NCBI RefSeq assembly: GCF_964019385.1
Contig: NC_088649.1
Coordinates: 13,579,731 to 13,643,730 of the forward strand
Source: Sycon ciliatum
Taxonomy: Eukaryota; Porifera; Calcarea; Leucosolenida; Sycettidae
Length of the DNA: 64,000 bases
Direction of reading: 5' to 3'
A program made the position numbers and the translations under genes. Below the pieces are notes generated by a model that saw only the letters and a list, made by a program, of their open reading frames with translations, did no database searches and was not told the DNA's origin. Shown one piece after another: positions 57,855-60,800 of this stretch (positions are counted from its first letter, which is position 1; each line of letters begins with the position of its first letter).

Positions 57855-60800
57855 TCAGAGATGTGACGTCATACCGCCGGCGTTGACAATCGTCTCGCCA
57901 GTGATGTAGCGTGCGTCATCCGATGCCAGGAATGCCACCGTACCGGCCATGTCCTCTGGAACGGCCACGCGTCCCAGCGACGTCTGCTCCGTGATCTTGG
58001 AACCGGCATCACTCTTTGTTAGCTAATATCATACACACAAGAACACGCACACACAGCACAAACACACACAGCACAAACACACACACAGCACAAAAGAGCA
58101 AATTTCAAAACTACACGCACCAACATTTTAGAACAACATCAGTGAAGAGACGCACATCAATCTTGTCGGAGTAAGCATGTCATGTGTCGTGTGTACATGC
58201 ACAGCACTAACAGCAGCAGCAGCAGCACTAGCAGCACTAACAGCAGCACTAGCAGCACTAACAGCAGCACTAGCAGCACTAACAGCAGCACTAGCAGCAC
58301 TAACAGCAGCACTAGCAGCACTAACAGCAGCACTAGCAGCACTAACAGCAGCACTAACAGCAGCAGCATCAGGAGCAGCAGCAACAGCAGTGGCAGCAGC
58401 AGCATCAGGAGCAGCAGCAACAGCAGTGGCAGCAACAGCAACATTATCAGCAGCAGCAACGCGGGAATAAAGATAAAACAGCAGTATCAGCAGCACTAGC
58501 GGCAGCAGCAGCAGCAGCAGCAGCAGCAGTATCAGCAGCACTAGCGGCAGCAGCAGCAGCAGCAGCAGCAGCAGTATCAGCAGCAGTATCAGCAGCACTC
58601 GCGGCAGCAGCAGCAGCAACAAGGGAATAAAGTTGAAACAGCAGCAGCATCACTACAGTCCATTTCAAAACTATAGACGCGTACCTAGGCAAAAACCGTT
58701 ATGCCAGCATCTATACCACATAACATCTGTGATCACTTGGTGCATAAATTTTTCCAAATTGGGCGTCTGTTATCCAATCGTTTAGAAACTATAATATGAG
58801 AGTAATTGTGGAGCGGACCGGAGCAATATTCCGAAAAGTATTCTCAAAAAGTTCCAGCCAAATTTGAAATATTTCAAAAACCCTACGCGTCTATAGTTTT
58901 GAAATGGACTGTAACATCTACGGTACCTACTCACCGCTGAGCTAAAGCGTGTGTCGACAATACCAGGAGCCAAGCAGTTGACAGTGATGTTATCGTCACC
59001 CAGCTCACGAGCCAACACCTTTGCCAGTCCCAGCAATGCTGTCTTGCTCACTGAGTATGGACCAAGACCCTGAGAAAACAACAACAACAATAACAACAAC
59101 AACAAGAACAAGAACAAGAACAACAACAACAACATAATATCAATCAATACACTGGTTCAATACACTGGCTCAGCACACTGGCTCCTTTTCAACCACAGTT
59201 GCGCTCGGTGAAATCCGACCCACAAACCTGGAGCCGGCCCTGGACCAGTTGCGATTACATCACTGTACTTGTATATGTGTACATCCAGCTGCTGCATTCG
59301 TATCACTTACAGGGTGGCAAGGGCCGTATAAGTTGAGGGCTGCAAATGTGCACTCTGGGTCGGATTTCACCGAGCGTAGCCGTACACGTATACGCCGTTC
59401 AGGCAGGTAAGTTGGAGCATACCAGTACCAGGTGTAGTAGACGCTTGCAACTGTACGGTACATGCAAGAGAGAAATGTGCACCCCCCCCCCCCCCCCACA
59501 CCCCCACACAGACACGACACCCGCACATACCCCCCCCCCCCCCCCCACACGCACACATACCGGAAGTGGTGTGAAAGCGGCTATGGAGCTGACAAAGATG
59601 ATGCGACCAGTACTCTGTTGACGCATGTGTGGGTAGGCCTCCTTGGCGAGCAGGAACGCACACTTTACATTGATATCAAAGATCTACAACAAAAGGAACA
59701 GCATCACACCATGCAAAGCAGGATAAGCCATGATAGTAGGTATGAAAAAGAGGAGAAGACGGTCTACTGTTTGCGTCTGTCTTCTTTGTATGACATCATG
59801 GCATGGTGATCAATTGTGCTACTGTCTGCGGCCCCGTCACTAGTGTTCCATCTGCACCTAGCAGACAAACAAACTGAATCGAGAGTGCTACAGTTGCGCT
59901 CGCTGACGTCCGACCCAAAGTGCAAAGCTGGCGCCCTGGACCAGTTCCCAATACATGTACATTACTGTATACCCAATGCTGTAGACAGCAAGCTGTTTCG
60001 GCCATAAAGGCCTCATCAGTACAGCCACATGTACATTTTTGTATGTGTACATGTGTACGTCCAGCCGCATTCGTGCCACTTCCAGGGCGTCAAGGGCCGT
60101 GCAAGTTGAGGGCGCCAGCTTTGCACGTTGGGTCGGGTTTCAGTGAGCGCACCTGTACGTACACAAAGACGGGAACTTACAAACAAACGATACAATGCGA
60201 TACACCTCTAGGGGCTCCCGTAAGAAGACCATAGGTCTGTGGGAAACACCCTAGTAAAATAAATAAAATAATCATAAATAAACCTGATCTAGGTACAGGC
60301 AAGAGTACCTTATTTACTCTTGGTACAGGTAATGAAGTACGTGTACTAGTAGTAGCCAGCCACAATAACCAACACAGGCCCTGCCACAGTCAAGTACAGT
60401 AGTCCTTACAGATGGAATTAGATGACATGCAGGCAGCACTCACATGTACACATACACATACACACACACACACATAATATTATACACATATACCTCAGAC
60501 CTGCCCATCGCGGAAGCGATGATAGCGAACAGCTATGTTAGACATAGCAACTTGTGCTGGGATACACACACACACAGACACACGCATGCACACACATACA
60601 CCTATACACCCATACACACACCCACAACCACACATGCACCCACACATGCACCCACACCCTAACCTTGTCCCATGCGGCACCGTCACACGCTTCCAACGTT
60701 GGACCGAATACCGGATTGACGGCAGCGTTGGACACCAAGATATCAATCTGCCCCCACGTAGACAGTGTCTACACAACATGTATCAAAATAGGAGAAACAC

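Follow-up and report, generated by a model that had tools for sequence, protein, structure and literature searches.

Results

The window analysed here is a 64,000-nucleotide stretch of the Sycon ciliatum genome (C8:13579731-13643730), taken from an assembly of 538 Mb in 313 contigs that was searched as a whole. At 60300..60322 lies a 23-bp hairpin that runs from CAAGAG to CTCTTG and is set between exact copies of GTACAGG at 60293-60299 and 60323-60329. An earlier note on this DNA had described it as one of five insertions with these ends, and all five are present at the coordinates claimed, each between exact, flush 7-bp repeats. Three of the others are likewise short hairpins: 32 bp at 23873..23904 (ATGATAG), 48 bp with a run of 19 C inside at 55981..56028 (CTACAAC) and 33 bp at 62726..62758 (GTATTAG). 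The fifth, a 348-bp copy at 2693..3040 (GTCCTGC), had been assigned to the same family, and it is a genuine non-autonomous element with an exact target-site duplication (TSD) and both the outer and the inner part of the terminal inverted repeat (TIR) at either end, CAAGAG...AAGAGTGTGCAACTC. We refer to this family as A and to its four short hairpins in the window as putative excision scars, for reasons given below.

Three further features of family A lie in the window. Directly after the 32-bp scar, and sharing ATGATAG with it in a CTCTTG-7-CAAGAG junction, is a possible second, degraded scar at 23912..23935 (CAAGAGTCCATAACCCC at 23912), whose outer flank, TTGATAC, agrees with ATGATAG in five of seven positions when compared by eye. 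A single terminus of a longer copy occupies 38922..38960 on the plus strand (CAAGAGTACATGAAACCAAGAGTGTGCAGCTC), and its partner end was not found in the window. Another longer copy, at 44234..44573, has a damaged right end, with the right edge placed by eye; it carries a 14-nt inverted repeat (AACCAAGAGTATGC) at 44245-44258 and 44554-44567, and no matching TSD was found for it.

A second family, B, with ends beginning CAGGGAGT and 8-bp duplications, is represented by a 2106-bp non-autonomous element at 16571..18676 (exact TSD AGCCAGAC, TIR CAGGGAGTCGTCAAATACCGGGAGTGGAAACG), which gave no Pfam match in the three open reading frames (ORFs) scanned, and by a 43-bp putative scar with 19-nt arms at 21463..21505 (exact 8-bp TSD GGTTCCTG). 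Two apparently old scars of this family were aligned by eye: one at 42147..42177, with flanks CGATCGAC and CGGTCGAC matching in 7 of 8 positions, is nested in a MITE at 41616-42310 (host TSD CTTTTGAG) that we take to be hAT-like, and one of 38 bp (19+19) at 55170..55207 has flanks GTAGCAAG and ATGGCAAG matching in 6 of 8. A motif-free scan of the window, in which a hairpin could span some 80 bp at most and had to stand flush between exact repeats of 6 or more, left seven matches once two-letter repeats were dropped, namely the four short family A hairpins, 21463-21505 with its 8-bp repeat, and two hairpins with 6-bp repeats. A wider hairpin scan gave 22 matches, several of which overlap or belong to larger inverted repeats, against 0-2 in each of five shuffles.

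Other coding sequence in and near the window was noted. An ORF at 39827-40444 on the minus strand was considered as the family A transposase and rejected, since only a THAP domain was matched (E 2.9e-9), followed by a stretch without a Pfam match, and nothing ties it to these ends; it possibly comes from another THAP-type transposon. A reverse transcriptase ORF in the window has a sub-threshold GIY-YIG match, a combination that Penelope-like elements also have. About 7.4 kb beyond the end of the window, at C8:13651088-13651414, there is a fragment of a P-type transposase with one stop.

Across the genome, the pattern CAAGAGT-N0-30-ACTCTTG has 5264 sites; the same pattern reversed, as a control, has 100. 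We examined the flanks of 53 non-redundant hairpins, drawn from 48 fetched of 50 listed sites (all on contig C1, the first ones there and not a random sample, in a single assembly) together with loci L051, L052 and L060 and the window; the satellite array in L025 and passive duplicate copies were left out. The two flanking 7-mers are identical in 30 of the 53 and differ by at most one mismatch in 38, and when the right flanks were permuted 2000 times the corresponding means were 1.05 and 1.86, with maxima of 6 and 7. The excess of matching flanks supports the earlier note's reading of the 7-mers as TSDs of a DNA transposon family. An earlier set of 48 hairpins gave at least 6 of 7 matching flank positions in 34, and none in each of four shifted controls (0/48). 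The 15 hairpins of the 53 that have no good flank match include nested parsings, diverged hairpins and one with inverted flanks. Among four oddly flanked hairpins examined for inverted flanks, the only clear case was that in L041 (281-322; C1:5118080-5118121), where a 42-bp hairpin stands between 15-bp flanks that are inverted and not direct, the whole forming a 72-bp near-palindrome that is perhaps a fold-back repair product. At L025 3683-3913, units of CAAGAGTCCCGGGG...CTCTTG recur every 62 bp or so in the manner of a satellite, perhaps through tandem amplification of something like a scar, and at C1:10784881-10784938 a family B end (CAGGGAGTCGTAAAATACC) lies within a family A hairpin. A scan of IMG/VR for CAAGAGTNCATAACCCC found five contigs, none with a CAAGAG...CTCTTG hairpin inside the 60-base gap tested.

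The intact ends of family A consist of the outer CAAGAGT, a spacer and then, from about 15-28 nt in, the inner repeat (AAGAGTGTGCAACTC or a variant). There are 4918 ends that include the inner motif (CAAGAGT-N6-24-AGAGTGTGCAACTC), 2457 on one strand and 2461 on the other, against 0 for the control, and many are paired about 300 bp apart among the matches listed; two small elements of this kind, 348 bp in the window and 313 bp in L027, are intact, each having both parts of the TIR and an exact TSD. The hairpins are built differently. The 38 well-flanked ones are 14-48 bp long (median 26), and in 34 well-flanked hairpins the outer TIR matches a 22-nt consensus over 6-19 nt per side, although this consensus best fits one subfamily, so that the stubs of others, such as those of the 48-bp hairpin, are under-measured. 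The inner motif was found in none of 45 well-flanked hairpins (all end pairs to 80 bp, some passive copies included); the hairpins thus lack the complete terminal inverted repeats by which MITEs are recognised. Their joints are blunt (17+17, 17+18, 19+19), contain filler, or fall at microhomology, down to CAAGAGTACTCTTG. Widening the gap to 31-60 gave 1023 sites against 83 in the control; among the matches listed, at least eight consist of a pair of hairpins with 7 nt between them, some are runs of C, and the inner motif is kept in at least three (C1:17014100, 20982635 and 22946647). The short copy C1:7037569 also keeps it, and this minority of short copies probably arose by internal deletion.

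The exact sequence of the 60300-60322 hairpin occurs once in the genome. Hairpins seen four and three times among the matches listed have identical or near-identical 60-bp flanks in all copies, and were therefore copied together with their surroundings. Ten paralogues of the site of the fourfold hairpin carry a hairpin (nine aligned, and L017), and one on C11 has no hairpin and a single ATTGTAC, which makes it an empty site for a family A scar. The second empty site lies within the window itself, at about 460-610 on the other strand, where the sequence flanking the family B scar at 21463 is found again (92.5% identity over 134 bp, on one side) around a single GGTTCCTG at 583..590, read as CGTATGGGTTCCTGGGTGCCC on the minus strand, with no hairpin. 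Empty paralogous sites of the sort that the earlier note had asked for are thus available for both families, and they show insertion. A BLAST comparison of the window with itself, examined around 12 of its elements and hairpins, gave the empty site of the 21463 family B scar and none at the family A hairpins, and among the loci read, all in one assembly, none had a full element in one copy and a scar in another. In both families, some hairpins without filler are found letter for letter at more than one unrelated site, between different duplications: family A has two such sequences, CAAGAGTACATAACTCTTG (two sites) and a 26-mer (also two), and family B has several, including a 38-bp palindrome at L066, L073 and L096.

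Family A hairpins also occur in series. Tandem junctions (ACTCTTG-N0-30-CAAGAGT) were found at 1177 sites against 62 for the control; by eye, the spacing is exactly 7 in 22 of the 50 sites listed, and in the fetched loci every junction with a spacing of 5-9 has a spacing of 7 (8 of 8, three of them in L060). In L060 (C1:18750200-18750700), the stretch C1:18750370-18750506 holds four scars, no two alike, interspersed with CTCATAT, which occurs five times.

The family B pattern, CAGGGAGT-N0-30-ACTCCCTG, has 5578 sites in the genome and two in the control. Forty of 50 listed sites, L012, L027, L029, L036 and the window gave 47 hairpins, and 44 after three duplicates were dropped. Their flanks are an exact 8-bp repeat in 17 and match in at least 7 of 8 positions in 26, against permuted means of 0.42 and 0.85; of the 18 without a good 8-bp match, two have a 7-bp repeat. 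The commonest length is 38 bp, which accounts for 8 of the 26 well-flanked hairpins and, by eye, for 15 of the 50 sites listed.

The core of P-type transposases (PF21787, TNP-like RNase H N), searched for with Pfam, was matched 44 times in this genome and not once in 14 control genomes. One of these loci has an 839-aa ORF with a family A end 233 bp upstream. A second copy, which agrees with it at 99.98% over 4577 bp, is a complete family A element of 5923 bp at L053 362-6284: it is flanked by exact copies of its TSD, TTATCGG, both of its ends carry the TIR CAAGAGTCCATAACCCCCCAGAGTGTGCAACTC, its inverted repeat is 33 bp long, and it has the 839-aa ORF, which matches PF21787 above the cut-off. 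The autonomous element with the same termini and a transposase that the earlier note had proposed to look for is therefore present, and its transposase is P-type. The element also contains, on its opposite strand, a 418-aa ORF without a Pfam match (L053 4713-5969) and, at L053 3668-3710, a family A hairpin with flanks that match in 5 of 7 positions; this hairpin rides inside the element and is therefore copied with it. For family B, a 983-aa P-type transposase, above the cut-off for PF21787, lies inside a 7474-bp element with the exact TSD GTTGCGAC and ends CAGGGAGCCCTACACATACCGGGAGG that are related to family B, the left end having a small duplication. Within this element is a 40-bp palindrome made of 20+20 nt of the element's own TIR, in which the stub ends in ...ATACC, immediately before the inner GGGAG.

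A profile built from three P-type proteins of this genome matches the P transposase structure 6p5a at 9.1e-15, and it also matches C2H2-finger structures; the 839-aa ORF as sole query had no PDB match. TNP-like_GBD, the GTP-binding insertion domain, is below the cut-off in the 983-aa protein and in an 851-aa protein and was not seen in the 839-aa one, and no THAP match was found in any of these three as single ORFs, where a separate exon is possible. The P-type transposases of L050 and L052 have zinc-finger-like matches to ZAP1, FOXP and ZIC, with no THAP detected, and by profile they match GLI and ZAP1 structures.

Discussion

Several lines of evidence place both families in one superfamily. 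The TSDs, 7 bp in family A and 8 bp in family B, both fit the 7- or 8-bp TSDs of the P superfamily. For family A, the target as rebuilt reads T..GTANTAC..A, in which the outer T and A are possibly favoured because some tandem sites were included, and family B prefers GT....AC over 8 bp; the second base T with its mirror A reaches 0.85 in family A and 0.83 in family B. A GT...AC target is not by itself diagnostic, because hobo, a hAT element, has a similar motif, given as GTNCGNAC in the available part of PMC3276498. The length of the TSD, the target, the CA...TG ends and the core of the transposase agree in indicating the P superfamily.

Excision scars of P-type elements are known from fly genetics. 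We suggest, with a confidence of about 90%, that the short hairpins are such scars, left behind by cut-and-paste transposons of the P superfamily and rejoined by end joining. A family A element, with its 33-bp inverted repeat (CAAGAGT...), would insert and duplicate 7 bp. On excision, the transposase would cut one strand at the edge of the element and the other about 17-20 nt inside the repeat, so that both 7-bp duplications would stay at the donor site, together with at most some 19-20 nt from either inverted repeat. Error-prone end joining by the host would then close the site with trimming, microhomology or filler, and the product would be a palindrome because the two stubs are inverted copies of one another. 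Family B (CAGGGAGT..., with 8-bp duplications) would follow the same route. We infer the position of the cut from the stub lengths, and likewise the repair pathway and the former presence of full elements at the scars' own sites. According to the available text of PMC7776569, the Drosophila P element has a 31-bp TIR and its transposase cuts one strand 17 bp inside it; filling in and joining ends cut in this way would give scars that fit those seen here. Several observations speak against this reading: among the loci read, no site shows both the full element and its scar; filler-free hairpins recur at unrelated sites; a few short copies keep the inner motif; gaps of 31-60 still give an excess of sites; 15 of 53 family A and 18 of 44 family B hairpins are without well-matching flanks; and the 839-aa ORF gave no THAP match and, as sole query, no PDB match.

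The earlier note had proposed that the 23-48 bp hairpins are themselves mobile, as ultra-short elements mobilised by the transposase. Exact TSDs and common termini would be expected from this, and so would hairpins that lack filler and stand verbatim at unrelated sites between different duplications, as the 38-bp palindrome of family B does. However, such filler-free sequences are what the simplest joining of one inverted repeat yields, and they should arise again and again, so that a preferred joint explains the recurrence and mobility would fit it too; in family B, the preference for one product may come from the CCGG at the joint, which is self-complementary. What weighs against mobility is that the 60300 hairpin is single-copy, that the fourfold and threefold hairpins sit in near-identical flanks, that interiors differ between sites and the depth of the joint varies, that the inner TIR motif is absent from all 45 hairpins, and that one well-flanked hairpin is just 14 bp long. 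We therefore do not retain that proposal, and consider it very unlikely.

It is still less likely that the hairpins record aborted gap repair, in which copying from a template after excision halted early and left the tips of the element. The few short copies with an inner motif (C1:7037569, 17014100, 20982635 and 22946647) are as this would predict, but stubs of any length should then be found, whereas the scored stubs are at most 19 nt long and family B peaks at a total of 38 bp. Least credible of all, and to our minds barely so, is that these are palindromes or satellite arrays unrelated to transposition: the L025 array of CAAGAG...CTCTTG units and a CAGGGAGT palindrome without a duplication in L097/L099 would suit that idea, and against it stand the empty sites and the flush 7-mer matches in 38 of 53 hairpins, where permutation gives 1.86.

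Comparison with known systems bears on how these putative excision scars should be viewed. Like the Drosophila P element, the families described here have a TNP-type RNase H transposase, and their stubs are similar in length to its 17-bp cut; its target, in the part of PMC3276498 available, is a palindromic 8-bp GTCCGGAC, as in family B. In contrast, family A duplicates 7 bp and no THAP was detected in its ORF, the two elements measured here are 5.9 and 7.5 kb long, and scar-like hairpins number in the thousands in one genome. Galileo and 1360, both of the P superfamily, share with family A the 7-bp TSD and a similar target, GTANTAC in the available text of PMC4168063 and GTTNAAC in that of PMC3276498; the comparison is one of TSD and target. 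The word "footprint" does not occur in the available text of the Galileo paper (PMC4168063). The accessible portion of PMC10983969 presents zebrafish Pdre2/THAP9 as a P-type element active in excision assays, which differs in having a 13-bp TIR and an 8-bp TSD, and describes deletions after excision. As for MITEs, the copies of 348 and 313 bp fit that description as ordinary non-autonomous elements that have both parts of the TIR and an exact TSD, whereas the hairpins are without the inner part; the coral CMITEs are linked, in the available text of PMC2872659, to piggyBac-like elements.

The simplest account of the chains is that elements landed repeatedly in the same duplicated 7-mer, with excision after each landing, and a scar may make its own site more attractive as a target. 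We would go further only tentatively, at somewhat less than even odds, and propose that P-type elements re-land in their own duplications, that a scar with its TSD regenerates the preferred palindromic target (...TTG-TSD-CAA...) so that sites grow into chains, and that the roughly ten thousand scars form a heritable archive of the outcomes of excision and end joining.

Among the matches listed in our literature search, which left subscription journals mostly outside, we recognised no title on P-type scars at genome scale. The two patterns together give 5264 + 5578 palindromic sites in one assembly, and annotators of repeats should be cautious about classing such hairpins as tiny MITEs. If most of these sites are scars, the cut position of a P-type transposase from outside the flies would be measurable from sequence alone, and the germ-line routes of end joining (blunt, microhomology and filler), together with the frequency with which sites are re-used, would be readable in the same way. 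If they are products of excision, the scars would preserve a record, made in nature, of the ways in which DNA breaks were mended.
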